Shown: positions 5,340 to 44,272 of the stretch, in pieces
How the letters are laid out: each line of letters begins with the position of its first letter
How positions within the stretch are numbered: position 1 is the first letter of the stretch
Assembly: GCA_026197095.1 (NCBI GenBank)
Contig: JAPHTF010000047.1
Span: forward strand, 1-56,398
Direction: 5' to 3'
Length of the DNA: 56,398 bases
From: Gammaproteobacteria bacterium
GTDB taxonomy: Bacteria > Pseudomonadota > Gammaproteobacteria > UBA6429 > Thiohalophilaceae
The notes under the pieces: generated by a model
What the model saw: only the letters and a program-made list of their open reading frames with translations
What the model was told of the DNA's origin: nothing
Databases searched by the model: none
Program-made: the position numbers and the translations under genes

Positions 5340-5650
5340 GTGATCTATCCCCCTGAACACTATAGTCGGCGAATTGATATATTTTACTAAAAGTCATTAA
5401 ATAGAGGCTAAATGACTAGAACATCCCTGTTATACACATCCATTAACAAATCATTGCTTTGTGAGAAGCAGTGTAACTTTATCCATTTTCCCTGATTTTT
5501 TCAGTGATAATTACCACTTTTCGTGATAAATACTGACTATAATTGTATGATAATCAATTACGATAGATTGCAAATCTTTTAATCTGTACATATACATGAT
5601 TATAATATTTACTTAATCAGGAAAATGACTTCAGGATATAAATACAAAAG
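5340..5650. promoter_or_regulatory. Divergent regulatory spacer between DUF6316 and CRP-like genes
   Basis: 311 bp with no ORF, separating two divergent genes and so expected to hold both promoters. Visible elements are an AGTCATT/AATGACT inverted pair near 5390-5425 and two GTGATAA direct repeats around 5503-5526. Neither matches a perfect CRP box (TGTGA-N6-TCACA) or FNR box. Autoregulation is possible but not shown. Confidence 0.35.
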
Positions 5651-15613: not shown

Positions 15614-18600
15614 TTACATCTTGGCTACAAAGTTTATGAAAACACCTCTGCTATCATAATCAAGGTCGGTTAAATCATCAGAGAAATCGGTGAAGTTATA
15701 GCCAACACCTAATTTCATTTTTTTACCCAGGTGGTAATATAATGCAAACAATCCACCCTGACGGGTATCCCCTGCTTCTGGAATCGTCAGCATTCGACCT
15801 TCCATTAATGCATCCCAACGATGCGTCACATGCCAGTCAGCACGTAAAATATATAAATTTGCTGAGCTACTGAAGAATTCTGGATTAACACGGTCTAAAC
15901 TGATTTCCCCAAAACGGCGGGCAACCTTACCGCCAATACTCCAGCTTTTAGAAATATCATAGGTCATATCAAATGCGAGAATATGACTCCTTTGTATATA
16001 TTCTGATGCCGTGTTATTTAACGTCACCTGATCTGCAGCAGGCAAATTATAGAAATATGTATATTTAAATAAAGCATTGAGGTTGTCATTATCAACAGGA
16101 CGATATGCATAACCCAGTACAGCCTCAGTAAAATTGCCATTATAAAAATCACCCTGGCTACTAACACTGGTTGAATGGTTAAATTTTCCAATAAAACGCC
16201 AGTTTGGATTCACCTGATATTTCAGATTATTTTTATATAATGTCGTGACCCGGTTAGTAATTGAAGTATCAGGGTTTTCAGTATTATCTGTGCGATGTTC
16301 AATTGCACCTGCATATTTAAAACTATCAAAACCATATCCTAACTTAACACCATAAGCATTTCGCTCAATAATAGCACCGGTATTGTTATCTTGCAGACTC
16401 CCTATGTCCACTGTCGCACCAAGCGTCAAACGATCTGTTGGTGCAAGATCAACACCCATAGAATGGGTTAATCCTGTCGGAATATCACCATGTGTGTAAC
16501 GTTCTTCAAGATAAATACTGGCACTATCTGAGTACTTCGTTTTGAAACCAGATGATAAATTTCCTTTTTGTGCACGCAATCCATTATCGGTACGTTCATT
16601 TTCTAAAGCATAATTTAAATAAATATTGGTGCGATCAGAAACCAGATAATCTGTGCCTAGTTTTGCCGCAGTACCGAGATCACCACCCGAAACTTCAGCC
16701 AGAACTTTAAACTTGTCTGTCACACGATATTCAGTGCCTATGCCAGTACGAGCATTTTTCTCACGGTTACCTGTTGATTTTACGGTATCTTGTACAAAGC
16801 TATATAAAGTCCATTTTTCTTTTGAATCGTATGTAGCTTTTACCGCAAGGTCTGTGCGATCACCTTGTTTCTGAGTTAAAGGAACAACTGCAGATTGATC
16901 GCTTCGGTTATCATTTCTAACACCCGCTGATAATGTCCATTTATCTGTTATGCCATAATCTGCATCAAGCTCAACGGCAGATGAATGTAGTCCTTCTGTT
17001 ATCGTTTTTTTATCCACTTTAAGCTTGAGGTTCAGGTTCTCTAATACTGGATATTCAACTGACCCACCCGATTGTTTTGTATCAGTAACGGCAGATAAAC
17101 CAGGAGCTGAGTAACCCGCTTTAAGTTCTTGATTATATAACGTGGCTTTACCTTTAATGCCATCAACCACTTCATCAAAACGCACACTGGCATCTACACG
17201 GGTTGCACCTGCGGTAATATTATCACCTGATAATTGAGTTACTGGATTAAAATTATAGCCGCCATCAGTTGTTATTTGGCTGGTACTGGTTTGTCCTTTA
17301 CTAGTAGATTGCTCTACCTTCAACCAGGTACCCGCACTCTTACGTAAAGTAACATCGGCTGCATTAACACTATTACCATCTACTGAACCGCCAAATTGAC
17401 TCGCAGTAGCACCTACTTTTAAATAGTCGGTTATCCAGAAATGTGTTCGCCCACCTGTAGATAAATCTTTTGTTTCACCGAGTACGGAGGCATATTCATA
17501 TCGTGAAACTAAATACACTTCATTCGTTCCGCCATTGCCACTATCAACAACTAAATTATCACTGCTTGACGCAGACAAGGGTTCAGTTAATAAAATTCGG
17601 CCCTGAATATAATCAATATCATAATCAAGTGCAGGAGTAAGATTTTTTACTGCCAGAACAAGGCCGGATGTTTTTTCACGTATCTCAATACGCAAACGAT
17701 CAGAACCGGCGAGGATATCCTGATGTTTTAGATAATAGAGTGATCCACCCGTACCACGGAATTCGTCACGACCACCGATAGTGCCTGATTCAGCAGCAAA
17801 GATATCAGCTTTAAATGTTTTTTCACCAAATGTTGTCGTGGCCGCATTCTCATAATGAAGATTGGCGCCATATAAACTGCGATCAACATGCGCAAGATTA
17901 TTATCGGTGTAATTAATATTAAAATTACCCCATAAACCATAGTCTGTACCTTTTTGTAATTTAAGGTAGAACTTACCCATGGTCGGAGCCATTTCTTCTG
18001 TCGTACTATCATCACCAAAAGTTGGATAGTAATAGTCGGGATCAATACGGCGGAAAACCGAATCCGGTGATTTATCCATAAAGTTGGTAAACAAATCAGC
18101 TAATGGTCCCTCACGGGTATCCGCACTCCCTGTAAATTCCCAGTTATCACCAAACTTGCCTTTAGAGAAAAAGGCCAACCGTCCATCTACAGTAGTATCA
18201 TTATCATAATGCGTAGTATCACCAGTAAGCAGAGCAGCTGGGCCATTGGTAGCATCACGGCTTGCGGTAATATCTGCAATACCTACGATAAACCAGTCAT
18301 TTTGTTTTAACTCTAAATCACGCAAATAAAGTTCACCATTGCCGGCTGAGTTAAGAATGGATACCTCAACGGTATGTAATCCTGCAGGTAATATAACTTC
18401 ACTGGTAAATTCTCCATTATGACTTACAGGAATGGATTGACCTGCAAACCAAACACTATGATCTTCAGGTACATTTTTACCATAGACCTTAACTGCTCCA
18501 CCCTTGTGTGAAATATTATTTAAACCTAAACGGTTTTCACCATAACCTATGAGTAATTCAGATGATGAATTTTTATCTTTATTATCATCACTTAATTCAT

Positions 18601-20728
18601 CAACTAACCAAATTTCCTGTGGTTTGGTTTCATCAAAGTTATCGTCTTTATCATAGACACGCACAAGATATTGCAACTCAATAGACGGCGCGACAAATGT
18701 TTCAAGTTTAGCGAACCATTCACCGTTGCCTTTACTATCAAGTTCAACTATAGCAAAAGGTGTATCGCGTGTTGATTGTTCTTTTTTGAAGATTCTTACT
18801 TCTGAACGCTGAATCACATTGTCATAATTACTATAACGTTTAAAGCTCACCAGGTTTTCAGGGTAGCTGGTTGTTAGTTTATCGCGATAACGGACTACAT
18901 TAGGCCATGCAGTAATATTAAGACGAGGCTTTATACTCAGATTATCAAATTTAAATTGCACATCTGCTTTTTCAAGTTCAACGTCAGTACAACGTTGGAT
19001 ATCTGCACTGCTTTTACCAGGATCATCAATGGGAGTACCATCAATCGAAATACGCATCATATTAAGTGCATAAGGGTTACGTATAGGTACTTCACGTACG
19101 ATACGATCTATCTCAACACCTGTTTCATCATCAATAACAGCCAGATCATCATAGACTACTCGCGCTTCAACGCGCGACTCATCAAATTTTAAGAAACCGG
19201 CATTGACCACATCATCTGAATGTACAAAGCCTCGGCCTTCAAATTCAGTCTGTTCGCTGGTTAAGTTACCCAGTTCTTGTACTGTTTCTTTTACCCGTCG
19301 GGCACGAGAAGTCGATAAACCAATATCATCACCGTAAACCATTGCAGTACGACGATCTAAACGTTCATTATTGGTGTAACCAATAAAGCGCACACGTACA
19401 TTACCTTTATCAGAAACTTCTGCCATGATGCGCTTTAAACGTTCAACATAACCTGGTGGAATAACGGGTTTGCCTTTATCAAAATAAACCGGTTTTACAT
19501 TTCCTGCGGGTGGCTCATATACCCGGGCCACATTTTCTGCAGCCGCTGCTTCAGGACAAAGTTGTGGCTCATCTGTGAGTTGTTCAAGTGAATCATCGTG
19601 CCAGAACTCAACTTCGATTCGGCGATTAGCCGCACGCCCTGTTTCAAAATCATTAGAAGCAATAGGGACAGCTGCACCGCGGCCATCACTATCAATCTGG
19701 CGATTAGTTAAATTCATAGCCCCCTGAACTGCAAGTGCAACACGACGTGCCTGAGCTTTTGATAAAGCAGTATGCTCACCATAAATACGCGCCATACGTC
19801 CTTCTAAAGGAATACTATCTGTATGACCAATGAGTTTAATTTGTACATTGGCTTTATCGCGTAAGTTATAACGTGCTTCTTTAAGTTGTTTAATAAACTG
19901 CGCAGGAATTTCGGCCATACCTTCAACATAACGTAAAGGTGGCACCAGGTTTTTTAGTCGCGCTCTTTTTGCATGGCCCGCTTTGTAACGAATTTTACAG
20001 AGTGTTTCTATTCTGCATAACTTAACACGTTTTATTTCTTGCTTAACCTGTACTACTTTTTCAACCAGTTTTTCATCTATTTCATCGTACCAGACCTGTA
20101 CTTCAACACGACGGTTTTTAGCTCTACCTGCATTTGTATTATTACTTACGACAGGTTTGCTTTCGCCTAAACCGTCAAATGAAATCGCTTCCGGCGGTAA
20201 ATCCAATGCCCGCTGGAAATATTCCGCAGTTGTGCCTGCCCGTTCACGAGATAACCCGGTATTATTAATATATTTTTCTTTGAGTGCACCTGAAAGTTTT
20301 GCACTGTCGGTATGCCCTATAAAGTGAAGCCTGACATTCACTTTAGTTTTCATACCATCAAGAATATCGCGCAATAATTTAACGTAGTTTTCAGGTATAT
20401 CTGCCTCACCCGATTTAAACTGAATTGGTGGAACCACGTTTTCCAGTTTTACCGTATTGGCATTTTGTTCAAGGACTTTTTTTACTTCAACCTTTTGTTC
20501 TTGCGTGGCCTTTTCGGTTTCTTGTATCCACTCTTTGGCCTGACCATCATTGATGAGTTGTTTTTCAGCATTATCAGCTGGTGAAGTAATTTCCATTACA
20601 TCTGATGCTGTCTCAGCATTTGCAGTTAATGAAGTAATTAACAAGATTGCAAACAAACCAAGCATCAATGCAAGCATTGATAAAATAATGGCACAGAATC
20701 GTTTACATATTGATTTTAGTAAGTTCAT
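15614..20728 (-). CDS. Outer-membrane protein with three N-terminal OmpA-like domains and a large beta-barrel
   Basis: 1704 residues from the ATG at 20726-20728, preceded by AAGGGGG; a TTG one codon earlier is possible. After a signal peptide ending about A-N-A there are three OmpA-like domains at about 98-215, 260-380 and 408-528. The first two keep the peptidoglycan-binding TD and NRRVE/NRRIE signatures (FIGHTDSAKL, LIGHTDSIPL). In the third the Asp is lost (FIGYTNNERL) and NRR is ESR. An Ig-like/beta linker follows (about 560-840), then a strand-rich region of about 850 residues resembling a large outer-membrane barrel and ending VFINFVAKM. Usually the OmpA domain lies after the barrel, so the order is reversed. 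The ATG overlaps the stop of the giant gene (TGATG), implying translational coupling. Confidence 0.85.
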   Translation of the reverse strand: MNLLKSICKRFCAIILSMLALMLGLFAILLITSLTANAETASDVMEITSPADNAEKQLINDGQAKEWIQETEKATQEQKVEVKKVLEQNANTVKLENVVPPIQFKSGEADIPENYVKLLRDILDGMKTKVNVRLHFIGHTDSAKLSGALKEKYINNTGLSRERAGTTAEYFQRALDLPPEAISFDGLGESKPVVSNNTNAGRAKNRRVEVQVWYDEIDEKLVEKVVQVKQEIKRVKLCRIETLCKIRYKAGHAKRARLKNLVPPLRYVEGMAEIPAQFIKQLKEARYNLRDKANVQIKLIGHTDSIPLEGRMARIYGEHTALSKAQARRVALAVQGAMNLTNRQIDSDGRGAAVPIASNDFETGRAANRRIEVEFWHDDSLEQLTDEPQLCPEAAAAENVARVYEPPAGNVKPVYFDKGKPVIPPGYVERLKRIMAEVSDKGNVRVRFIGYTNNERLDRRTAMVYGDDIGLSTSRARRVKETVQELGNLTSEQTEFEGRGFVHSDDVVNAGFLKFDESRVEARVVYDDLAVIDDETGVEIDRIVREVPIRNPYALNMMRISIDGTPIDDPGKSSADIQRCTDVELEKADVQFKFDNLSIKPRLNITAWPNVVRYRDKLTTSYPENLVSFKRYSNYDNVIQRSEVRIFKKEQSTRDTPFAIVELDSKGNGEWFAKLETFVAPSIELQYLVRVYDKDDNFDETKPQEIWLVDELSDDNKDKNSSSELLIGYGENRLGLNNISHKGGAVKVYGKNVPEDHSVWFAGQSIPVSHNGEFTSEVILPAGLHTVEVSILNSAGNGELYLRDLELKQNDWFIVGIADITASRDATNGPAALLTGDTTHYDNDTTVDGRLAFFSKGKFGDNWEFTGSADTREGPLADLFTNFMDKSPDSVFRRIDPDYYYPTFGDDSTTEEMAPTMGKFYLKLQKGTDYGLWGNFNINYTDNNLAHVDRSLYGANLHYENAATTTFGEKTFKADIFAAESGTIGGRDEFRGTGGSLYYLKHQDILAGSDRLRIEIREKTSGLVLAVKNLTPALDYDIDYIQGRILLTEPLSASSSDNLVVDSGNGGTNEVYLVSRYEYASVLGETKDLSTGGRTHFWITDYLKVGATASQFGGSVDGNSVNAADVTLRKSAGTWLKVEQSTSKGQTSTSQITTDGGYNFNPVTQLSGDNITAGATRVDASVRFDEVVDGIKGKATLYNQELKAGYSAPGLSAVTDTKQSGGSVEYPVLENLNLKLKVDKKTITEGLHSSAVELDADYGITDKWTLSAGVRNDNRSDQSAVVPLTQKQGDRTDLAVKATYDSKEKWTLYSFVQDTVKSTGNREKNARTGIGTEYRVTDKFKVLAEVSGGDLGTAAKLGTDYLVSDRTNIYLNYALENERTDNGLRAQKGNLSSGFKTKYSDSASIYLEERYTHGDIPTGLTHSMGVDLAPTDRLTLGATVDIGSLQDNNTGAIIERNAYGVKLGYGFDSFKYAGAIEHRTDNTENPDTSITNRVTTLYKNNLKYQVNPNWRFIGKFNHSTSVSSQGDFYNGNFTEAVLGYAYRPVDNDNLNALFKYTYFYNLPAADQVTLNNTASEYIQRSHILAFDMTYDISKSWSIGGKVARRFGEISLDRVNPEFFSSSANLYILRADWHVTHRWDALMEGRMLTIPEAGDTRQGGLFALYYHLGKKMKLGVGYNFTDFSDDLTDLDYDSRGVFINFVAKM

Positions 20729-23700
20729 CAATCAATTCCCCCTTTATCAGGTGGGCTGCCACGACGCCAGAATATTTCTGTTTCAATGGTCAATTTGTAT
20801 TTTTCGTCTTCTAGCCATTTATTAATAAGATCTTGTTTAACTTTTTCTAAACGATCTTCTACAAGATCTTCATCATCTACATCAGCTAAATAAGACAGAC
20901 GTAAGATCGAAGGTTTGTCTTTTAACTGTTTAATTAATAAATCTAAACGAGGTTTCCATTGACTGTTCATTTGTGTGCTACCAGGCACAAATACACCATC
21001 AGCAATATCCATACTGACTACACGATGTAATGCACTACCAAAATTAAATTTCAGCATTTTACCGCGAGTCGCACGTTGTACACGTGGGTTCTCAGTTGTC
21101 ATGCGGTAACCGGTTGGTAAACTTCTTTCGTCCAACTTAAGAATAAAGTTAGTTCCACGATCTTCATTGGGTACAACCGCGCAGGTCACATGGAAACGTC
21201 CGTGTTTATCACTCGTAGAAGTTATTCCACGAACCGTAACCAGCTTGACGCCAGCGAGTCCTTTTTCATTTTTATCCTGGTATCCATCTAGATTTTCATC
21301 ATCAAAGACCTTTCCAATTACATCGGAACAATCGAAATCAGGATCAGCCGTCACCCTAACCGTTGCATTAGCAATACCTGATGCTCTTGTATTGGTTAAG
21401 GTATCAAAAACATAGGCCTTATTAATATATGGTCCCTCATTAACAGCAGCACCCACGATAAGTAATAACTTAATCGTCTGCGTTTGACCAACAGGTAAAT
21501 TAATATTACTCCAGGTTAATTCAAGCCCACTGCGAGTGGGTTCAAGCGCGACTTCAGTTGATCCGTTGTTATAGCGAGCAGAGCCTTCAATATATTTAAA
21601 ACCAGCCGGGAAGTTATCCACAATATTACTGTTGTTCAAATCAACAGGTAATGAATTTGTAAACGTTATTGTATAGGGAACCAGTTTGCCACGTGTTACA
21701 TTAACAAACGCAGATGTTTTTGTGATAGCAACGGCATTGGTTAAAATTGGATCAATGGGCAGATGATTATTAAATATCTGGCTATCACCAGGTATATCAA
21801 CATTATCCAGGATTAAGTGTAAATAATAACTTGTTCCTGCACTTGCCGGTGCAACTGCAAGTGTTGGTGCGAGTTCAGAAGGTTGAACTTCACAGAAATC
21901 AACAGGCGCAGCCACATCATCATCAGCTGTTCCCGGGCAATTAGGTACATTAAATGCAGCCGTTGTCGCATCTGTTTGTGGTGTAATTACAGTTGATGGC
22001 AACAAGTTGTAATCAGTTGCTGGTGGTGTGATGCGAATCAGGTAGCTACCCCCTGCTCCACAATCACCCTGACTGAAATTCAGATCAAACTTATAGTAAC
22101 CATTTGCTGTTGTAACCTGGCTTTGTTGATTAACATCGTCAAAGCAACCTGATGATAGTTCTAGTCCGGTACCTGCATTTAATAAACTTATTGTTGCACC
22201 AGGAATGGCTGCTCGAGTTACTGAATTATAAACAACGCCATTTGGATCAATCGGTAAATTCAGATTTTGAACATTAGCACCAGGATTTAAAACAATGTCA
22301 TAAATACGATGCAATGCATTAATATATGTTAAAGCCGGATCTGAATACGCCATGCCTAACTTGGCTGTTGTTGAATTAGAACCAGGTGATCGGAAACGAA
22401 TATCATAACGATCCGTACCAATATAATTAGGTATCAAACCATTAATTGAATAATTACCATCTGTGTCAGTTGTGACTGTTCCTAATAGAGTCGTGTTTCG
22501 ATAAATATCTACATACCAATTACTTAAAACCACTTCACCAGCATCATAAATATTATCGTAATTCTTATCATGCCAGACTTTACCATTAACGTTCGCGACA
22601 CCCGGAGTACCACCCACATCAACCGAAATGGTGGCGCTGTCAGTTTGAGTTGCAGCATTCCAGTAGACATTAGCTGTATTAGTAATTGTGGTTCCAATAG
22701 GTAAGGTGTTATTTACATCAACTCTAAATACCAGCTCAGCAGTTTGACCTGCGGGTAAGTTTCCATAAGGTGCATCGTAATCTGCTGAAATAACAGGTAA
22801 TCCGGAAACATCAACACCCGCAGGTAAGCCATTAAGTAACCCAGATCCCACTACATAGGTTAATTGCCCTGCAACTGGCAAATCTAAATTATCTGTTATC
22901 GTGACGTTAGTTGCATCAACAGCACTTACGTTTCTTACAAGAACCCGGTATTCAAGTTGTCCACCTGCGACTACAGGGCCACCACCCACTACTGCCACGC
23001 TCTTAGTTATGGTAAGTAATTGACCGTTACCAACTACAATTACCGTTGGTTGATCACCATTACTATCAATTCCATCTGCATCAGTTGGTTCAACAGGAAG
23101 TTCATTACTATAAACATTACCCTGATTACTAATGATTGTACCGCCAGCTACCGCAGCATCAACTTGTACATCAAAGGTAATAACAGCATTCGCACCCGCT
23201 GAGAGAATACCATTGCCTGCAGTTGGTAATGGTGGTGTTAAATCTGATGAGCTGACTGGAATTCCAGCAATTAAAGGTGAGGTGCCAGCATCAGGCTGGC
23301 CAACAGGTAAAGTATTTAATGTAACACTGTCTGTTATATAAGTTGTATTTGCAGGAACAGCATCAACAAAGCGTACACCAGTAGCAGGTGTTGCACCGAT
23401 ATTTGATAGTGTAATGGTATATCGAATTATATCGCCTGGATCTAAAAAGCCATCACTATTATTATCCACATAAAGGCTTACCGTTTTAAGCGCATCAACT
23501 AAAGGTTGGTTACCCACAACATCACGAGTAGGATCGTTAGGTATGCCAGGTGTTCCAGGATCATCAGATGGTGTATCAGCCATTGCCCCACTTGCAATAC
23601 CCTCTGCTGAAACATAAGCCTGGTTAGAAATAATGGTGCCATTTACAACATTAGTATTTATCGTTACATCAAATATAATGGTTGCAACATTTGCTACAGA

Positions 23701-33982: not shown

Positions 33983-35305
33983 CTATGTCGCCGGTAAAAA
34001 ATCTATTGGATAAAGAATTGTTATAGTCGGAACATCCTTTTTAGCTCCAAAATTAAAACGAGTTACTCGTTCAACAATTTTCTTTGATAATAAAGCCGAA
34101 TCTAAATCACTCGATTCAACTTTTGCTTTCGAAACCTTGCCGTCAGGTAAAATCGTAATGCGCAAAACCATTTTTCCCTGCAGAGTGGGATTTTTACGAA
34201 GCTCCCGGTTATATATTCTATAAAGCGCGGCTTTGTAGCGATCAAAGACAATTTGAATTTCTTCATCTGTTCGTGATGGTCCAGGACCAGAACTGAGTGG
34301 CCTGTCCCCAGCTGCAGCTGTTCCAATTTCACTGGTTACACGTGAGAATTTAACTGAGCCTATCTTGCCACCTGCAATACCAACATCACGACTTAAGGCA
34401 GATGAATTAATACCACCACTGCCACTTTGAGCCTGGGCTAATACTAATGACCTTGATGTCGACTTCGCCTGTGTACCTTGATCAGATAATTTGGCATTCG
34501 CACCAAGTTTTGCGTCATTTACATCATCCATCAAGTCGGCAAAATTATTTTTAAATGCGAGTAAACCGGTCTTTGCTGCTTTTTCACGTGCCTTAACTTT
34601 TTCTTCCACACTGGGTTTTTTCTTCTCTGCAAGCTGAGTTTGTTTCTTCGGTTTTGGTTCTGGCTGTTTTTTCTTAATAAATTTAGCTATACGCTCAGGG
34701 ACTTCAACAACCTCTTCCTTGTCGGGTATAGGAAGCTCGATATAGGGAATAACTAATGCAAATAAAATACTGTATAGGAATGCTAATAATAAATATTTTT
34801 TAAAACGCTTTTCATCTTCACCCTTGTTACTCCAGGGCATGACCATTTCACGATAAGAATCAGGTGTGTATTCCCTGTTAACGATATAATCATTTTTACT
34901 TTCAGCTTCTTCGAGTTTAGTAAGCTCAAGATCTTCTTTTAAATAACCAATCTCATAAGCAGAATCCTCAACCTTCTTTTCTAACTCAATCTTTCTGCCA
35001 TCGATAATGGCTATTTGATCATTAAATTTTTTCGCCTTACCACGTAATCCATGCAGATGTTCTATTAAATCATTTTCATTTGTGTACTTGTCTTCCCAGA
35101 AAAGTTTACCTCCACCTAACGCATGCAATTCCTCAAGTTTTTCACTAACCTCGGATAAATGGGCATAAATCGAAATTTGAGATGCCATACTCTCAAGATC
35201 AGCCTCAACCAGTGCAAGTTCTTTAACTAATTTTTCACGACGACGCTCAGCTTCAACGATTTCTATCGCGATTTTTTCTTGTTCAGATGAAACAACAGAG
35301 TTCAA
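33983..35305 (-). CDS. AgmX/TonB-like envelope-spanning energy transducer
   Basis: 440 residues in the arrangement expected of a TonB/AgmX (Glt) transducer. A cytoplasmic coiled coil (about 8-135, rich in Glu/Lys) is followed by one membrane helix (170-188, YLLLAFLYSILFALVIPYI), a periplasmic Pro/Lys linker (200-240, KKKQPEPKPKKQTQ), a flexible region, and a C-terminal AgmX/PglI-type domain (345-440) with LQGKMVLRITILPDGKVSKA. The start is TTG at 35303-35305, chosen because AGGGG lies 7 nt upstream and no ATG fits. It follows the second ExbD gene by 10 bp. TonB lacks such a long cytoplasmic coiled coil, whereas Glt-type proteins carry cytoplasmic domains, so a regulated motor link is the better reading. 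Confidence 0.85.
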   Translation of the reverse strand: MNSVVSSEQEKIAIEIVEAERRREKLVKELALVEADLESMASQISIYAHLSEVSEKLEELHALGGGKLFWEDKYTNENDLIEHLHGLRGKAKKFNDQIAIIDGRKIELEKKVEDSAYEIGYLKEDLELTKLEEAESKNDYIVNREYTPDSYREMVMPWSNKGEDEKRFKKYLLLAFLYSILFALVIPYIELPIPDKEEVVEVPERIAKFIKKKQPEPKPKKQTQLAEKKKPSVEEKVKAREKAAKTGLLAFKNNFADLMDDVNDAKLGANAKLSDQGTQAKSTSRSLVLAQAQSGSGGINSSALSRDVGIAGGKIGSVKFSRVTSEIGTAAAGDRPLSSGPGPSRTDEEIQIVFDRYKAALYRIYNRELRKNPTLQGKMVLRITILPDGKVSKAKVESSDLDSALLSKKIVERVTRFNFGAKKDVPTITILYPIDFLPAT

Positions 35306-35315
35306 TGTTAAACCC

Positions 35316-35810
35316 CTAACCCTGTGAAGCTTTTTGAATTACAGCTAATGATATTTTTCCATACCCGGCACTGGTGCATGTTGACATAATCCGTTTTAAC
35401 AATTTAAAGGGAATTTTCTTGTCAGCAAGCAATGTCACTTCCTTCCCTTCAATAGCCGCTTTTGTACTTGTACCAATAACGTTTTTCTTTTGCTCCAGTA
35501 ATTTTTCTCTTAAAAAAGAAATTGTTTCATCTTTTGATGTAAGCGCATCACTTGTTTTCATTATTGGTTCACCCTGTAACAAGATGACTTCAGGTGACAC
35601 AAAAATCACAATCGTTTCACGTGGCTTTGATTCAACAACAGAGTCTGGCAGAGCTATTTCTTTTGGGTTAGATAAAACTTCATTCGAAGCTGAATTCGTT
35701 AACAGGAAGAATACTAAAATAGTAAACACGTCCATAAGAGAAACCAGGCTTAAGCCTGCTACTCTCTTTTTACTGCGAGACATACGTTTTATACGACGTG
35801 AACTTTTCAT
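35316..35810 (-). CDS. ExbD/TolR-family proton-channel subunit (Asp-containing copy)
   Basis: 164 residues: a short basic cytoplasmic start, one membrane helix (about 20-38, LSLVSLMDVFTILVFFLL) and a periplasmic domain. D27 aligns with ExbD D25 and TolR D23, the protonatable residue that drives rotation and conformational change with the TolQ/ExbB ring. The ATG overlaps the stop of the preceding ExbD-like gene by 4 bp (ATGA), so the two are translationally coupled and probably assemble together. In the Myxococcus Agl motor two TolR-like proteins (AglQ, AglS) pair with one TolQ-like protein (AglR), the same gene content as here. Confidence 0.9.
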   Translation of the reverse strand: MKSSRRIKRMSRSKKRVAGLSLVSLMDVFTILVFFLLTNSASNEVLSNPKEIALPDSVVESKPRETIVIFVSPEVILLQGEPIMKTSDALTSKDETISFLREKLLEQKKNVIGTSTKAAIEGKEVTLLADKKIPFKLLKRIMSTCTSAGYGKISLAVIQKASQG

Positions 35811-36328
35811 GGTGCATCACCAACAGAAATATTCGTAAATAAAATAATTTTCTCAGGCGGCTTATTTGAGACTGGCGCTGGCGTTTCTGTTAAATCCTCT
35901 TCTTCTGGTTTTTTTTCGGCACTACGTACTGCATCCATAACCTTGACTAAAAATTCATACTCAAGTTCTGACTCCATTAAAACCACAGCATCTGTTTTAT
36001 CCGGATAATTTTTTTTAATTTTTTGTAAGTAGGTTGATAGCTGTGGAATATCATATTTATCCTCAACTTTAGGCATGTTCGCAACAACACCTTTGCCATT
36101 ACTAATCTCAATACCTTTTTTACGCACAATGACTTCAAGCACCAACTTTGGCTTGTCAACCTGTCCTGCTCCCCCCACGGGTACATCTAACTCCAGAATT
36201 GTAATGCGTGAAAATACCGCAGAAATTAAAAGAAAAGGAATCAACACAACCATTAAGTTTAAAAAAGTCGTGATATCTAATTCAGGAACTTCCTTATCCT
36301 TGCGTCTGTAATGATGTCTTCTAGCCAT
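35807..36328 (-). CDS. ExbD/TolR-family subunit lacking the canonical membrane Asp
   Basis: 173 residues with one membrane helix (about 18-42, ITTFLNLMVVLIPFLLISAVF) and a periplasmic domain with a Pro/Glu-rich stretch (about 145-160, [20 protein letters not shown]). Aligned with E. coli ExbD (VTPFIDVMLVLLIIF), the proton-carrying Asp is Asn (N24); D18 at the membrane edge is the only nearby acid. It lies 8 bp after the TolQ/ExbB gene and overlaps the next ExbD by 4 bp. Probably a structural or stator partner in a heteromeric motor in which the other copy carries protons. Confidence 0.88.
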   Translation of the reverse strand: MARRHHYRRKDKEVPELDITTFLNLMVVLIPFLLISAVFSRITILELDVPVGGAGQVDKPKLVLEVIVRKKGIEISNGKGVVANMPKVEDKYDIPQLSTYLQKIKKNYPDKTDAVVLMESELEYEFLVKVMDAVRSAEKKPEEEDLTETPAPVSNKPPEKIILFTNISVGDAP

Positions 36329-36336
36329 AATATGCT

Positions 36337-36981
36337 CTAGCCCTGGCGTTTAACCGATTCAGAAATAATATTGAGTGTTTTTACTGAAGCCATTTCTAAA
36401 CTATCAATAATTTCGCCGGTCTTTGAGGTTAAATATGTATGAGTAATGAGTAATGGAATTGCGGCCATTAAGCCGAATGCAGTTGTGTTCATTGCAACCG
36501 AGATACTGGCTGATAATAAATCCGCCTTCTCTGCCGGGTTAGCATTGGCGACTGCGGTAAAGGCTTCGATCAAACCCATGATGGTACCCAGTAAACCTAA
36601 CAGTGTTGATATATTGGCAAACAGGGCAACATAAGGCGTTCGTTTTTCAAGTTGAGGAATAATTTCCATCATGCTTTCTTCCATCGCGATTTCAATATCA
36701 TCACGACGACGCACAGCACCTTCTCGTGCTAAGCCCATACCTAAAAGCTGGCTAATGAATGAGTTATCTTCAGAGGTTAATTGTCTGGCCTCATCAAAAT
36801 TACCTTCAGACATAACGGGATGGAGCTTATCCCATACCTTGCGGTTTTTACCTCTTACTGAGGCAAGTACAACAGCACGCTCGATTGCGATTGCGCTACC
36901 AACTGCAAAGACAATAAGAATGGGGTACATAAATGCACCACCGGCCTGAACAAATCCAACTACTGTATAGAGAAAGTCCAT
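36337..36981 (-). CDS. MotA/TolQ/ExbB-family motor protein
   Basis: 214 residues with the three-helix topology of the family: helix 1 at about 13-35 (AGGAFMYPILIVFAVGSAIAI), a cytoplasmic loop, helix 2 at about 118-140 (YVALFANISTLLGLLGTIMGLI) and helix 3 at about 163-182 (NTTAFGLMAAIPLLITHTYL). The conserved TLLGLLGTIMGLIEAF and NTTAFGLMAAIP segments line the proton path. It is followed at 8 bp by two ExbD-type genes and then the AgmX-like transducer, giving a complete proton-driven inner-membrane engine. Among known systems this set (one TolQ, two TolR, AgmX) fits AglR/AglQ/AglS with GltG/GltJ better than Tol-Pal or TonB-ExbBD, because no TolB, Pal or receptor gene is adjacent. Confidence 0.93.
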   Translation of the reverse strand: MDFLYTVVGFVQAGGAFMYPILIVFAVGSAIAIERAVVLASVRGKNRKVWDKLHPVMSEGNFDEARQLTSEDNSFISQLLGMGLAREGAVRRRDDIEIAMEESMMEIIPQLEKRTPYVALFANISTLLGLLGTIMGLIEAFTAVANANPAEKADLLSASISVAMNTTAFGLMAAIPLLITHTYLTSKTGEIIDSLEMASVKTLNIISESVKRQG

Positions 36982-37305: not shown

Positions 37306-37965
37306 TTATTGTCCCGCCCTTTTTTTCAAATCAGCTAACCATATCGAAACTTCTTTTTCATCAGGCCTTACATTTAAATACGCTTCATATTGTTCAATGG
37401 CACAATTAAGATCACTCATAAATAAATCACATAAAATACCTAAATTTTTTCTGGCAGGTAAAAACTGGGGGTAATTTTTAATGACTTGTTCGTAGGTTGT
37501 TTTAGCTTTGGCAAATTGACCTGTTTTTCTGTAGACCAATCCAAGTTCATTATTGGTTACAGGATGTAATGGATTAATAGTGAGTGCTTTTAATAATATT
37601 GTCTCAGCATCCTTAATTTTTCCTGTTTCAGAATACGCAATGGCTAAATTTATGTAGGGGGCACTGTGTTTATCTGTTTGGCTTGTCACCTCAACCAGCA
37701 GTTCGATTGCATCATCATATTTTTTATTGTTGATATGAATAACGGCTTGCTTAAATTTGTCAGATAAATAGGTATCAATGCCAAACTCTTCTGAAATGAC
37801 AATATCGTCTGTATCAAACGTTGCAACTTTTGAGGTCGTTCCACATGCGGCTAGCATTAATACCAGCAGCAAAATAAACATTCTTTTGCAGCTTACAGTT
37901 GCTAAATTATCTGCGTTTTCACTAAACATCATTGCTGAATCCGGCTGATTTACATTAGACCTCAT
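37306..37965 (-). CDS. TPR lipoprotein
   Basis: 219 residues with a lipobox (LMLAAC at about residue 41 from the first ATG). The long N-terminal extension suggests that the true start may be an internal Met nearer FILLLVLMLAAC. The first ATG has AGGA about 7 nt upstream, so I keep it. About three to four TPRs follow (KKYDDAIELLVEVTSQ, GKIKDAETILLKALTINPLH, GQFAKAKTTYEQVIKNYP). A short outer- or inner-membrane-anchored TPR lipoprotein beside a TolQ/TolR-type engine parallels GltE/AglT of the Myxococcus system; this equivalence is inference. A 289-bp gap upstream of it may hold a second, internal promoter. Confidence 0.82.
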   Translation of the reverse strand: MRSNVNQPDSAMMFSENADNLATVSCKRMFILLLVLMLAACGTTSKVATFDTDDIVISEEFGIDTYLSDKFKQAVIHINNKKYDDAIELLVEVTSQTDKHSAPYINLAIAYSETGKIKDAETILLKALTINPLHPVTNNELGLVYRKTGQFAKAKTTYEQVIKNYPQFLPARKNLGILCDLFMSDLNCAIEQYEAYLNVRPDEKEVSIWLADLKKRAGQ

Positions 37966-38254: not shown

Positions 38255-41200
38255 TTACTTTGAACTTTCTGCTGCATTTTTAACCGAATTTGTTGCTTCC
38301 GGTATAGCAGCAATTGAAGAGGTTTCAGATGAACCATCTAAAGCATAACGATAAGACATCAATGAGCTGATCACACCTGTACTCACCTCATACTTAGCGT
38401 AACGGCCAGGAACAAGCCCGCCTAATTTTCTTAAACTACGATCAATCCAAAGACTATATACGCCTCCATTAAGGAGTTCGAGATTCTTCTTGTGGATGTT
38501 GATGCCCTTTTCCTCAAATGGATACGCTTGTTCCTCAAGCATCAGGTTATATTCCTCTAATTCCAATTCAGAGAGCTTTCGGGGGCGTTCTGAATCCATC
38601 AATGCCCGGCTAAAATGATAATATGTTTCAGCAATGTAATAGGTCGCAGCTGCAGTTACATCACCCACATGGTAATCAACTAAACTGTTATATCGACTGA
38701 TATTAGCTTTCATTTTCTTTTTCTTTATAGCAAGATTACGTTTAAATGGGCGTTTAAGTTTTATTGCGACAAACTCATCATATATAGGTGCAATTATTTC
38801 CAGAGACGCTATACCGGCTAAATAACGTGTACGCTCGGTGCGCTGAGAACCCGCCTTTGCATCCATTGCGATAATGTATTTAAGCTTATTAATATGATTT
38901 TTAGTTTCATTATTTGCTTTATAAAACGCAGCAATTTTTGCATGTATCTCAAGCGATTCTTCTAAAGGCTTAGGGAAATATTGAACATAACGTTCATATA
39001 CACGTAAGGTATTTTTTCTATCCGGTATCTTTTGATACAATTCAGCCGCGATTTGCAGTGATTCACGACGTATTGTCCGATCCGTTGACTCTGCAAATAT
39101 ACGCTCAAATTCTTTAGCCGCTTTTACATACTTCTTATCCTCACGATAAACATAAGCAATCTTTTTAGTCACCTCAGTTCGATACTTATGATTTGGATAT
39201 GTTTCTCTAAAAGCAAACAATACACTTGCCGCCTTGGTCCAGTCCTGTAGTTTAATCAGTGCCGTGGCGGCATCATATTCTGCCGTCGCCCGAATTTTAG
39301 AATCAGGTGCTAATTGGCGTATACGCAAGAAATGATCAGCAGCAACCTGGTATTCCTTCAGCGTATTCGCCTGTTCACCTTGCTTGTAAACAGATGCTGC
39401 AAGATTTTCGATTAACTTTTTACGTAACTCATTGTCTTTATTCGGCATCGCAAGAACTTTAACGTAAGCAAGTTCAGACTCTTTGAATTTATGTATATCA
39501 AATGATGAGTATGCAATAACCAGCCATGCAGAACGACGTAGATCTTGTTCAGCTTTAGGATAATTTTCAATCAGCTGATGTGCAGTATTGATTGCCAACT
39601 GAAAATCTTTCATTTCATATAAATTATCAGCCGTAGCTGCAAGAATAACCGAGGCTTTTTCATGCCTAGGAAAAACATCAACAAAGGTTAATGAAACACG
39701 AATAACTTCACGCTTTACCCTGTTTTTTTCATATTGAGAAACACTTTTCAAATGTTCTCGATAAGCAAAAACTGTAGCATAGCCCGCTTTTGAGGATTTC
39801 TTGTTTACCGGATAAGTATATGCCGTTTTTTCATATTCTTTTGCTGCGGCAAGGAAATCTTTGTTTTCCAGGTATAAATCAGCAAGCAGATAGTTTATTT
39901 CTGCTGACTCTTTGTCTTTTGGAAAAGACACCAGGAATTGTTTATACCAATGTGCTGCATCTTTGAAAGTTTGTTTTTTCTGATTCCGGTAATTGATGTC
40001 TTGATAAACAGCATGATAATGATTAGCTAAATCAACAATGTTTTTCTTTAAAAACTCAACGACTTTAGGGTTTTCATTAATGTTATAATATTTCCAGTAG
40101 GCTTCATTAATGCCGTAGGCCGAGGCATAATCCTTCTTCGCTTCTATAACCAGTTTAGGAAATTGGCCTTTATGATAAATCTCAATCATCCTCATACTAA
40201 AATGAGGAGAGAGCTTATGAAACTGGTTATTAGATATAAAAGCTTTATAGGTCAAAGCCGCATCACTATAACGACGTTTCACTAAATAAAATTCAGCTAA
40301 ATAACTATATACATCACTCTCGTAAGATTTCTTACCTTGTTTTTTAAAGTAATCAATAACAGCATCTGCCCCCCCCATATTTGAAAAACTCAGACTAATG
40401 ACACGAAATGTATCTTCGACACGTTTTTTAATGGATTGGTTGTGTGTTTGCCCGAAATCGTAACCAATACTGACTTTATAATCGAGTAAGGCAATAAAAT
40501 GATTAAGCGCTTCTTCATATAAATCTTGTTTATAAAACGTCCAGCCTTGTTTATATAAAGCTAACTCATAAAATTCAGTACCCTTGCCAATTTGAAGAAT
40601 CGACTTATATGCATCTTCGGCATCTAATAATTTCTTTCGGGTAAAATAATACTCTGCCCGTCTAAATTGAACTTCGGCAAAATGGCGTGATCCTGGATAT
40701 TCTCTAACCAAACGGTTCATGACATCCATCGCTGGATTAATCTGCCCAACCTCTTCATAAGCTCGCGATAATTGGTAAAGAACTTGATCCTTATGCTGGT
40801 ACATTGGAAACTTTTCGAGTAATTTTTTATAAAGCCGTATCGCCTTCTTGGCACCTTCTGTTTGCAAATCATCAATTTTCGAACCATCGGGCAAGGGAGC
40901 CACAGCTGATGATTTCGTGGCAGAGATTTTCTCGCTCGCCGACGCCCTTTTTTCAAAATTTTGAGTGGATTCAGATTTTACATCAGCTATAACAGACTCT
41001 GTATTTTCAGCTTTTGATGATTTTTTTTCACCCCCGGTATTTTTCACCTGTTCTACAGCTTTTTCTTTCTTCTCAACGACCTGGGCTTTAGTTTCATTAA
41101 TAACACCATATTCTTTTTCAACATTTAAATCCGCAAGACGGCGAATTGCATCAGGTGTCATAGCAGATTCAGGTGTTTGTTGTAAAAAACGTTGATAGCT

Positions 41201-41350
41201 TTTCATGGCTTTTTCAAGACCACCTTCAATACGCGCATCAACAATATCCGCATCAACATCTCGTAAATCTGCAATAGTCCCATTTTCATTAAAAGCACAT
41301 GCATTTAGCAGTAAAAGAAAAAACACAAGTAATAAGTTTTTAACTATCAT
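38255..41350 (-). CDS. Large TPR lipoprotein (Glt-like periplasmic scaffold)
   Basis: 1031 residues from the ATG at 41348-41350 (AAGGTGA upstream; an overlapping GTG one codon earlier is possible). A signal peptide with lipobox LLNAC (C about 18) is followed by a charged linker (60-140) and a long series of TPR-like helical pairs from about 150 to 800 (MYQHKDQVLYQLSRAYEEVG; FPKDKESAEINYLLADLYLE; YPNHKYRTEVTKKIAYVYRE). The last 200 residues are different and probably form a docking domain. The start overlaps the stop of the preceding gene as TGATG, so translation is coupled. Giant periplasmic TPR proteins (for example GltD/AgmU, GltI/AgmK) are hallmarks of the Glt machinery. Confidence 0.85.
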   Translation of the reverse strand: MIVKNLLLVFFLLLLNACAFNENGTIADLRDVDADIVDARIEGGLEKAMKSYQRFLQQTPESAMTPDAIRRLADLNVEKEYGVINETKAQVVEKKEKAVEQVKNTGGEKKSSKAENTESVIADVKSESTQNFEKRASASEKISATKSSAVAPLPDGSKIDDLQTEGAKKAIRLYKKLLEKFPMYQHKDQVLYQLSRAYEEVGQINPAMDVMNRLVREYPGSRHFAEVQFRRAEYYFTRKKLLDAEDAYKSILQIGKGTEFYELALYKQGWTFYKQDLYEEALNHFIALLDYKVSIGYDFGQTHNQSIKKRVEDTFRVISLSFSNMGGADAVIDYFKKQGKKSYESDVYSYLAEFYLVKRRYSDAALTYKAFISNNQFHKLSPHFSMRMIEIYHKGQFPKLVIEAKKDYASAYGINEAYWKYYNINENPKVVEFLKKNIVDLANHYHAVYQDINYRNQKKQTFKDAAHWYKQFLVSFPKDKESAEINYLLADLYLENKDFLAAAKEYEKTAYTYPVNKKSSKAGYATVFAYREHLKSVSQYEKNRVKREVIRVSLTFVDVFPRHEKASVILAATADNLYEMKDFQLAINTAHQLIENYPKAEQDLRRSAWLVIAYSSFDIHKFKESELAYVKVLAMPNKDNELRKKLIENLAASVYKQGEQANTLKEYQVAADHFLRIRQLAPDSKIRATAEYDAATALIKLQDWTKAASVLFAFRETYPNHKYRTEVTKKIAYVYREDKKYVKAAKEFERIFAESTDRTIRRESLQIAAELYQKIPDRKNTLRVYERYVQYFPKPLEESLEIHAKIAAFYKANNETKNHINKLKYIIAMDAKAGSQRTERTRYLAGIASLEIIAPIYDEFVAIKLKRPFKRNLAIKKKKMKANISRYNSLVDYHVGDVTAAATYYIAETYYHFSRALMDSERPRKLSELELEEYNLMLEEQAYPFEEKGINIHKKNLELLNGGVYSLWIDRSLRKLGGLVPGRYAKYEVSTGVISSLMSYRYALDGSSETSSIAAIPEATNSVKNAAESSK

Positions 41351-43398
41351 CACTTATCACCTTCATTTTTTTCTTCTTTATCTTGAACTTCTTCAGCTTT
41401 CAACTTTTCTTTATTGTTCTGTATTTTTTCCTGTTCAAGTTTTTGTTTCTTTAAAGCACGCTGATAAATATCTTCAGCTTCAGCCGCCTCTTGTATTAGC
41501 AAGGCTTTTGCCTTGTCTTTTTCTAACTCGATATTCTGTTGTTTTTTCAGTGCGCGATCATAACTTTCAGCAATAGAGAATCGTGCTTTAATTTGAAGCT
41601 CTTCAATTCTCTTACGTCTGTTTGATAATTCCTTAATCGACATTAATTCCAGCATATGTCCTTGTCTGGCCAGCAATAACTTTATTTTTTCATCTGCAAA
41701 GCGAATACGATTTTTAAGCTGATTAATCTGATCGGCATAACCCATAAAGCTCTGCGTAGCGGCTTGCCGCGTTCGAACAAACGAGCGGTAATTTTCATCC
41801 AGCTTGTCAACATGGGTATTTAACAAACGTAAATTTTTATCTGCTTGAGTAAACCTTTCCTGATACTCAGTTTCTATATTCCACTGAATAGCGCCTTTAA
41901 GCCTGTTTATTCTTGCCTGTACAGACTGAGGTAACGGTTTTTTCCCTGTTGTATATTTTTTTTCAATAGCATATAAATTATTCAGCACAATCCTTTCATT
42001 CACTTTTGCCAGGTAATCAGGTCGTGGAGCTATCAACATTTTATTTAAACGTTCTGAAATTTTATTGCGCTGCTCTAGCCGAAGCTTCATTCTGGAATCA
42101 AGCAGTCTGAATTTTTCCTGCATAGCCGGAAATATCGGAGTGTAATAATTCTGGCGCTGAGCGATTACTTCAGTGTAAGAATCTAAATACCCATCCCAGG
42201 ATGATACTTTTTTCTGCAAATCGTCCAGATCGAAATAGTTTTTAAGTGACTCCTGAAAATCATTGGAGGCAAGCATTGTCATCAGGTAATGAGTTTCAGG
42301 CGTATCCGGAAGATTACGTAAGTTAATTAACCAGTTTTTATCTTGTCGTGATTCTTCACGCACAACAGCTTCCAAAAACTTGCCTTCACGAATGCTTTTA
42401 ATTGAACTATCCAGTCTCTCCAGTTCTTTAGAGTATGTTTCCAGTGCATTTCCATAAAGTATGGCGGCCCGACCATGGGCCTCAAGTTTTCCATATGCAA
42501 AAGGTAAACCTAATAAAACTTCCTGCACAGATTGATCTGTGACATTTCGCTTCGATAAAATTGTCCATGGAACAATTGCCTTCTTTGGAACCTCGTCAGC
42601 CACAGATGCCCATCCTGAACCGAGCAATGCTTTATTTGAAAAGGGACCATTTATACGAATGCGATCAAAATATTTCTTTGCTCGGTATGGCTGCTTGTTC
42701 TCCATTAGTTTATAACCAAGTACAAGATTTGCTTTATCACGCAGACCTAATACATATTTATCCGATGAGCTTATCTGCCCTGCTGTATCCAGCTGTAGAA
42801 TACCTTTTTCTATTTCATTATTACCTATATATGCTATTGCCAGGTTATAACTTGCATAGCCATCAACAGCAGATACATTTTCAATTTTACTCAGTATCTT
42901 TATTGCATCCTGGAAGCGGCCATTTGATATATAAATTTGCGCTTTTAATAACTCAAAATCATATTTAATTTTATCCGGAATTTTACCTTTGCTACTTTCA
43001 ATAGTATGCAATGCATTTATCGGCTGTTGTTTTTGATGATAAATTTTGGCAAGACGATAAACAGCACCATTTCGAATCTCATCATCCACATTGCCTTCAA
43101 GTACAGATTTAATTGCGCGGCCGGCACGGTTGTGCATGCGATAATATAATTCAAAATCACCAATAGAAAATTCTGCGTGATTCAAATAAAAATGAAGAGA
43201 GTTTAACTCAGGCTCATCCAGACCATAATACTGACCAAGTTCAGCATCTATTTTACTAATAGCATCAAAGTATTGTTCTTGATATGCGTAATAAAGTCCC
43301 TCGTTAAAAAAGAGATCTTTATTATTAGTATTTTTATTTTCAGCATATACGATAGCTGAAAAAAAAATACTCAGGAAAATGATAATTCGATGTGACAC
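41350..43398 (-). CDS. Periplasmic TPR and coiled-coil protein
   Basis: About 682 residues. I place the start at GTG 43396-43398 because it gives a clean signal peptide (SHRIIIFLSIFFSAIVYA then ENKN). A TTG at 43422 would add eight residues and overlap the previous gene by 11 bp; neither has a strong ribosome site and there is no ATG. Residues about 40-270 are TPR-like (PINALHTIESSKGKIPDKIK; RFQDAIKILSKIENVSAVDG). The middle is helical, and the last 200 residues form a long, very charged coiled coil ending in runs of Lys/Glu. The stop overlaps the next start (TGATG). Presumed periplasmic rod or scaffold of the motor complex. Confidence 0.8.
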   Translation of the reverse strand: MSHRIIIFLSIFFSAIVYAENKNTNNKDLFFNEGLYYAYQEQYFDAISKIDAELGQYYGLDEPELNSLHFYLNHAEFSIGDFELYYRMHNRAGRAIKSVLEGNVDDEIRNGAVYRLAKIYHQKQQPINALHTIESSKGKIPDKIKYDFELLKAQIYISNGRFQDAIKILSKIENVSAVDGYASYNLAIAYIGNNEIEKGILQLDTAGQISSSDKYVLGLRDKANLVLGYKLMENKQPYRAKKYFDRIRINGPFSNKALLGSGWASVADEVPKKAIVPWTILSKRNVTDQSVQEVLLGLPFAYGKLEAHGRAAILYGNALETYSKELERLDSSIKSIREGKFLEAVVREESRQDKNWLINLRNLPDTPETHYLMTMLASNDFQESLKNYFDLDDLQKKVSSWDGYLDSYTEVIAQRQNYYTPIFPAMQEKFRLLDSRMKLRLEQRNKISERLNKMLIAPRPDYLAKVNERIVLNNLYAIEKKYTTGKKPLPQSVQARINRLKGAIQWNIETEYQERFTQADKNLRLLNTHVDKLDENYRSFVRTRQAATQSFMGYADQINQLKNRIRFADEKIKLLLARQGHMLELMSIKELSNRRKRIEELQIKARFSIAESYDRALKKQQNIELEKDKAKALLIQEAAEAEDIYQRALKKQKLEQEKIQNNKEKLKAEEVQDKEEKNEGDK

Positions 43399-43411
43399 AC
43401 AAATTACCCAG

Positions 43412-43927
43412 TTATTGATCAAGAATTTTAATTGCCGAGCTTCCAGAACCTAAACTTATTTCAATAAGTTTGGGGCCAACGCCCTTATTGATAGTATAAG
43501 TAATTTTTCGACTGGTTTTGCTTCCGCCCTTTTTTCCTATAACACTGACATCTAATTGGTGATTACCCGACTGAATATTGCCAGTAAAAATACGCTGTAC
43601 GCCACCCCGGCGTAAAGCATCAACTTCCTTAAAACTATAAATATGATAAGCCACTTTTTTGCCATCTAATGTAATTTGTACCGCATCAGGTGAATAGCCT
43701 TCTTCCTTACTCATGGAGACAAAAAGTGAGACCTGGCTAGTAGAGGGGTATAATAATTTTTCTTCTAAAAGTTGCAGTTCTGCTGAAATTGCCAGCACAT
43801 CCTTTTTAATGTCCTGAACTTGCTCATCAAGTCCTTTAATTTGCTCTCGTGACAAACCTGCTGACCAGCATGATAATGGGAGACTGACTAATAAAAGTGC
43901 AGTAATAACTGTTCTAATCTTGTTCAT
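43412..43927 (-). CDS. Exported protein with short coiled coil, first gene of the motor cluster
   Basis: 171 residues from the ATG at 43925-43927; an upstream in-frame start at 43963 would put 12 residues before the signal sequence and is less likely. The signal peptide (MNKIRTVITALLLVSLPLSCWSA) is followed by a coiled-coil segment (LDEQVQDIKKDVLAISAELQ, about 31-58) and a beta-rich domain (QVSLFVSMSKEEGYSPDAVQ; GNHQLDVSVIGKKGGSKTSR) that resembles a small Ig-like fold. Its stop lies 13 bp before the next GTG. No family is recognised. As the first gene of the 28-kb run its upstream region should carry the main promoter. Confidence 0.75.
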   Translation of the reverse strand: MNKIRTVITALLLVSLPLSCWSAGLSREQIKGLDEQVQDIKKDVLAISAELQLLEEKLLYPSTSQVSLFVSMSKEEGYSPDAVQITLDGKKVAYHIYSFKEVDALRRGGVQRIFTGNIQSGNHQLDVSVIGKKGGSKTSRKITYTINKGVGPKLIEISLGSGSSAIKILDQ

Positions 43928-44272
43928 AATATATATCCGGTTTTCGATTAAAAACATACCCATTTACATATTTTAGGGTAAAGCTGATAACATCATCTTA
44001 TCCGAAACAGTGCTCTAAAATAGTATTTTTGCAGAGCTTAATTCGTTTTGTAACAAATAGTTAGATTATCATTTTATAACCATTCTTTATTTGAACTTAT
44101 CGACAAATTCTGACAATACTGAAGCCATCAGTAGACGAAAACAGTCCTGTATTGAGACACAATAGAATATCTGTGCACCAGTTCACTATTTATAAGAAGC
44201 AGGCACAGTTGATGAGATTTCAGTCATTTATCTTGATATAAAAACAACTCATTTCCCCTATAACTAGCAATA
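43928..44272. promoter_or_regulatory. Spacer upstream of the motor cluster
   Basis: About 345 bp, AT-rich, no credible ORF. It should carry the main promoter of the minus-strand cluster. I found no convincing sigma-54, sigma-28 or CRP site. A GCTCT/AGAGC inverted pair flanks an AT-rich 16-nt centre around 44012-44037. Confidence 0.35.

Follow-up and report, generated by a model that had tools for sequence, protein, structure and literature searches.

The gliding machinery of Myxococcus has a core of seven genes that has also been described as a standalone cluster in Gammaproteobacteria and Geobacter (PMC3169522; PMC3858216). In the accessible parts of these accounts, this Agl-Glt core comprises one ExbB-like gene, two ExbD-like genes, a GltG/TonB-like gene, and three TPR genes; the 2011 study left its function unknown and reported one extra gene (PMC3169522). 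Those parts deal with the seven core genes and the extra one, and mention neither a giant DUF11 protein nor an OmpA-array barrel protein. The same core composition was found in a 56,398-nt stretch of gammaproteobacterial DNA, referred to here as the window.

Judged by sequence, and as far as the published core is described, the window operon matches it, with AglR/AglQ/AglS-like and GltC/GltD/GltE/GltG-like genes (Table 1). The AglR/AglQ/AglS-type set is complete, with one PF01618 gene and two PF02472 genes in adjacent positions, and is conserved in other genomes; the GltG/TonB-like product scores 43.7 bits against the full GltG model (cutoff 650). The core genes lie upstream, and the operon ends with the genes for a giant DUF11 repeat protein and a large barrel protein. 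All eight core-operon genes are located beside this pair in G055, G335, and G172, and six of them are beside it in the part of G345 that was read. Core TPR genes also accompany the pair at about 20 additional loci and follow the barrel gene in many Geobacter-type loci. In L062, a homologue in which giant and barrel are fused, the fused gene comes immediately after the end of a TonB-like gene. A connection between motor and giant is suggested by this gene neighbourhood. The 183-aa protein at the head of the set is about 43-58% identical between loci, is conserved together with the core operon, and may correspond to the additional gene of Luciano et al. (2011; PMC3169522). The genome of the window (G000) also contains two more genes whose AgmX/PglI C-terminal domains exceed the family cutoff (C11:11443-11712 and C59:588-836), possibly belonging to further Glt-like systems.

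Table 1. Coordinates of the giant-barrel pair, its domains, and the neighbouring core genes in the window.
Feature	Coordinates	Strand	Remarks
Barrel gene	15614..20728	-	signal peptide, three OmpA domains, large C-terminal beta-barrel-type region
Barrel core	15620..18931	-	basis of family tree, about 1104 positions
OmpA unit 3 of barrel protein	19148..19501	-	divergent; Pfam and profile
OmpA unit 2 of barrel protein	19595..19954	-	GHTD and NRR present; Pfam and profile
OmpA unit 1 of barrel protein	20084..20443	-	GHTD and NRR present; Pfam and profile
Signal peptide of barrel protein	20615..20728	-	MNLLKSICKRF...SLTANA; hydrophobic 13-mer mean 3.05
TGATG, giant stop and barrel start	20726..20730	-	one shared base
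Giant DUF11 repeat protein, 4397 aa	20728..33921	-	Sec-type N-terminus; SdrD_B-like domains near C-terminus
R, C-terminal OmpA-like tail of giant	20731..21039	-	predicted beta-alpha-beta-alpha-beta; profile 135 bits
S, last SdrD_B-like domain of giant	21031..21345	-	ends in NFG; profile match 191 bits
GltG/TonB-like, AgmX/PglI C-terminal domain	33983..35305	-	NF033768 67.4 bits, cutoff 40
ExbD/TolR-like (AglQ/AglS-type)	35316..35810	-	PF02472
Second ExbD/TolR-like (AglQ/AglS-type)	35807..36328	-	PF02472
ExbB/TolQ/MotA-like proton channel (AglR-type)	36337..36981	-	PF01618
TPR lipoprotein-like, GltE-like (weak)	37306..37965	-	GltE model 31 bits, cutoff 225
Large TPR protein, GltD/GltC-like by position	38255..41353	-	
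TPR protein, GltC/GltD-like by position	41350..43422	-	
183-aa protein	43412..43963	-	no family match; conserved in operon

The giant shares a long DUF11-type array with isopeptide-forming and DUF11 repeat surface proteins (TIGR04226, TIGR01451, PF01345). Unlike those proteins, it ends not in a cell-wall sorting signal but in a C-terminal module of two domains, S and R, and has a dedicated barrel partner. A literature search on DUF11 together with OmpA or Ton/Exb yielded no paper on the giant-barrel pair; a T11SS paper (PMC12282271) was considered and found to be unrelated to it.

S has a mean pairwise identity of 77% within the family. The tail that follows it, R, closes the giant with about 97 residues that include FVPGSTQMNSQWKPRLDLLI and LRLSYLADVDDEDL. 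The initial annotation held that this tail resembles the OmpA-like domains encoded by the following gene while lacking TD and NRR; its letters and coordinates are correct, and the resemblance exceeds chance. Both the GH-T-D and NRR motifs are missing from R, and Pfam, which called DUF11, SdrD_B, and similar domains, returned no OmpA match anywhere in the giant at E<=1. Direct similarity between R and the barrel's OmpA units is weak (hhalign P of about 1e-3 to 4e-4), with scores of 24.1 for unit 1 (maximum of 23.3 among 100 column-shuffled controls), 24.5 for unit 2, and 26.8 for unit 3 (maximum of 20.4 among 100 such controls). A chance resemblance was excluded, as the scores for units 1 and 3 lie above all shuffles.

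More distant relatives provide the intermediates. In outgroup giants, an OmpA-type unit directly follows S and grades from canonical (L128, with IEGHADKRHNARYNLDLARRRAASV, and L120) to degenerate (L123, L127, and L130). The region after S in these giants scores 37 against OmpA, and R scores 30.7 against the equivalent region (best shuffle 15.8); of the 171 positions in a profile of the outgroup S and OmpA region, 1-166 are covered by the match to S and R of the window. By its position, these graded intermediates, and the profile scores, R shares descent with OmpA units. Structure prediction agrees: AlphaFold2 modelled R alone as beta-alpha-beta-alpha-beta (pLDDT 86.4, pTM 0.77), and the top PDB match of this model in Foldseek, by probability and TM-score, was the periplasmic OmpA-like domain of TssL (6AEO; prob 0.99, TMq 0.54, 21% identity), at Foldseek E-values of about 0.05, by which two unrelated GRAS-domain chains outrank TssL. 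Foldseek with S and R combined gave no useful match, and a PDB sequence search with the tail gave none. A joint alignment of a fused protein, unpaired giant tails, and barrel starts produced a consensus that seemed to lay OmpA units onto R, and was kept out of the structure prediction. Like PF00691 and the TssL domain, R has the predicted beta-alpha-beta-alpha-beta order, an F..G/S..L opening, and an arginine in the second helix; unlike PF00691, it lacks GH-T-D, NRR, and the intervening loop and falls below Pfam detection, and an invariant W178 and a WRRG ending set it apart from the OmpA units compared here. The earlier description of the tail as a degenerate OmpA unit thus agrees with the outgroup intermediates, the profile links, and the predicted fold, which is OmpA-like and not unrelated. 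As modelled, R is a strongly derived OmpA-type fold.

Degenerate in motif, R is not degenerate in constraint. Its dN/dS of 0.03-0.10 denotes strong purifying selection and rules out a decaying domain, so the label of remnant given in the initial annotation is misleading. In 78 sequences, F120, Y153, an acid at 158 (E/D), R166, W178, E189, W194, and R195 (numbered within the 206-residue S and R segment) are invariant or nearly so.

Bacterial and archaeal genomes were scanned with the tail region; 344 relatives were detected, and the 79 best loci among them were retained. Among the 77 distinct loci around the conserved tail in this best-scoring set, one is fused, and the barrel gene comes next in about 70 of the rest. 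A giant with R has no barrel gene directly next to it in three cases: L013 and L133 (G335:C47), which have none nearby, although a second copy elsewhere in G335 does, and L038, where a second giant intervenes. L038 (Microbulbifer donghaiensis) is one of several Microbulbifer loci with paired giant genes close by, together with L054/L059 (sp. YPW16) and L050/L053 (M. sediminum); the tails within the latter two pairs are near-identical.

The search for fused homologues that had been suggested was fruitful. S, R, three OmpA units, and the barrel occupy a single open frame in three genomes: L062 (5193 aa), L118 (2785 aa), and L119, whose frame reaches the contig edge unclosed (at least 3046 aa). 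In these forms, the end of R joins the mature N-terminus of the barrel protein. A further candidate, L082, was rejected: its open barrel frame extends a long way upstream, but the giant lies in a different frame. Single polypeptides also occur among farther relatives (L120, L122-L126, L129, and L176), and in L127, L130, and L190-L192, the split falls after the giant's OmpA units. One locus, L120/L121 (G148:C2), contains an 11,777-aa open frame with an SdrD_B-like domain, an OmpA unit, and a barrel. R is absent altogether from some lineages (L183, L188, and L189), in which three genes are found: a giant ending right after the SdrD_B-like domain, an OmpA-less barrel gene, and then an OmpA-type gene.

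Signal-peptide-like stretches ending in AxA occur inside the polypeptide, ahead of the barrel region, in fused L120 (open-frame residues about 5480-5505; MMKNLGGLLLSAVVGTAHA) and L123 (about 1365-1395; NWRAGLGLALGLMFASANA), as expected if a separate gene had been absorbed; they could be either relics of gene fusion or cut sites of a polyprotein. A similar stretch is present in L128 (about 1265-1290), where the contig stops before any barrel.

At the junction itself, the giant's TGA (20730-20728) and the ATG of the barrel gene (20728-20726) have the A in common, so the fused stop and start is present exactly as first reported. Such an overlap is unremarkable, as four-base overlaps were seen at several other junctions of the same operon, for example at 41350/41353 and 35807/35810. 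In the two-gene relatives examined, with start codons picked mechanically, the junction is a one-base overlap in 26, a four-base overlap (ATGA) in 7, a larger overlap in 9, a gap of less than 30 nt in 12, and a longer gap in 16. Because the junction type varies in this way, the TGATG overlap is no scar of a split; the ordinary reading is that a barrel start placed on the giant's stop probably allows translational coupling.

How the two-gene arrangement arose, and what R does in it, can be weighed against the family trees, both of which were quick searches with SH-aLRT support only, long branches, and an uncertain root. The initial annotation had suggested that giant and barrel could be one ancestral polypeptide split by a stop; read as gene fission, a stop or a frameshift would have broken it at the present junction. 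Fused homologues do occur, L118 within the same family-level group and L062 and L119 outside it, and since deep relatives are often single polypeptides, a far older split, where the R-bearing clade begins, is conceivable. On the barrel tree, however, the close fused trio forms one group nested in two-gene rows (SH-aLRT 100 and 99), and the window sits with two-gene forms in the same eight-row set. The tree requires at least four changes between one gene and two; for the close forms, fission would need a fusion and several fissions where one fusion suffices. Moreover, the split barrel gene carries a strong signal peptide, a stretch absent from the close fused proteins, and the junction varies by clade from an overlap of several bases to a gap of more than 200 nt, unlike a fresh break. 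Fission as the origin of the window's pair is therefore highly improbable and was rejected on the nesting. Because the trio is nested in two-gene relatives and one fusion suffices, the close fusion is derived on this tree, and the window keeps the two-gene state that appears ancestral within its clade.

The other suggestion was that the tail is a degenerate OmpA unit now used to dock on the OmpA array of the barrel protein; in a fuller version, it would be a unit of that very array stranded on the giant side. The same broad fold, the weak profile similarity, and the fact that most close relatives carry both R and three OmpA units are consistent with such docking. Nevertheless, R is conserved opposite partners with no OmpA unit (L196, L197, L177, L178, L181, L184, L185, and L187), and it is closer to the units of the outgroup giants (30.7) than to those of the barrel (24-27). 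In the tree as drawn, lineages with zero or one OmpA unit branch before those with three, so the array of the barrel gene appears to have grown later, from none to one and then three. Because R persists with an OmpA-less partner and the array seems to be a later growth, the data do not favour array docking as R's conserved role; as an explanation of the tail, it is very unlikely. A different possibility is that R itself binds peptidoglycan as ordinary OmpA domains do, anchoring the giant without touching the barrel protein. Its predicted OmpA-type fold would suit this role, as would E/D158 and R166, which are invariant and lie near the canonical OmpA ligand positions in a domain with a shortened loop. 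The absence of GH-T-D and of the loop before the arginine, together with the position of R right beside the partner in fused forms, makes this function unlikely.

What the fused proteins indicate is proximity: because they join R to the barrel's mature N-terminus, the C-terminus of the giant and the mature N-terminus of the barrel protein almost certainly lie close together in one compartment, the periplasm. Taken as a whole, the evidence is probably best explained by R being a functional OmpA-like tail that seats the giant on its barrel partner, the surface output of the motor. R would be a functional, strongly derived OmpA-like domain that follows S and shows where the giant ends in the periplasm. 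Its outer-membrane partner would come from the next gene, which encodes a large barrel preceded by a signal peptide and an OmpA array of the peptidoglycan-binding type, such that giant and barrel may be regarded as halves of one envelope assembly, repeatedly joined or separated in evolution. The most likely role of R is to seat the C-terminus of the giant at this partner, close to the cell wall or outer membrane, and we infer that contact would be made through the periplasmic N-terminal region of the barrel core and not through the OmpA array. From its gene neighbourhood, this assembly probably serves as the surface-exposed output of a motor, the AglRQS/GltCDEG-like one that the operon also encodes. 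More tentatively, the standalone Agl-Glt-type motor of Gammaproteobacteria and Desulfuromonadales could drive or display a giant DUF11 surface fibre through the OmpA-barrel protein, with the tail coupling fibre, barrel, and wall, and with some lineages having welded these parts into one polypeptide.

The analysis is most useful for bringing out a modular giant-barrel pair that closes an Agl-Glt-type operon. The repeated joining and separation of the two genes is natural evidence that their products belong to one assembly, and it reveals which ends meet. The position of the pair in the operon provides a concrete candidate target for the motor core outside gliding bacteria, a question left by the 2011 study, and this candidate is open to test in culturable species such as those of Geomonas and Microbulbifer.
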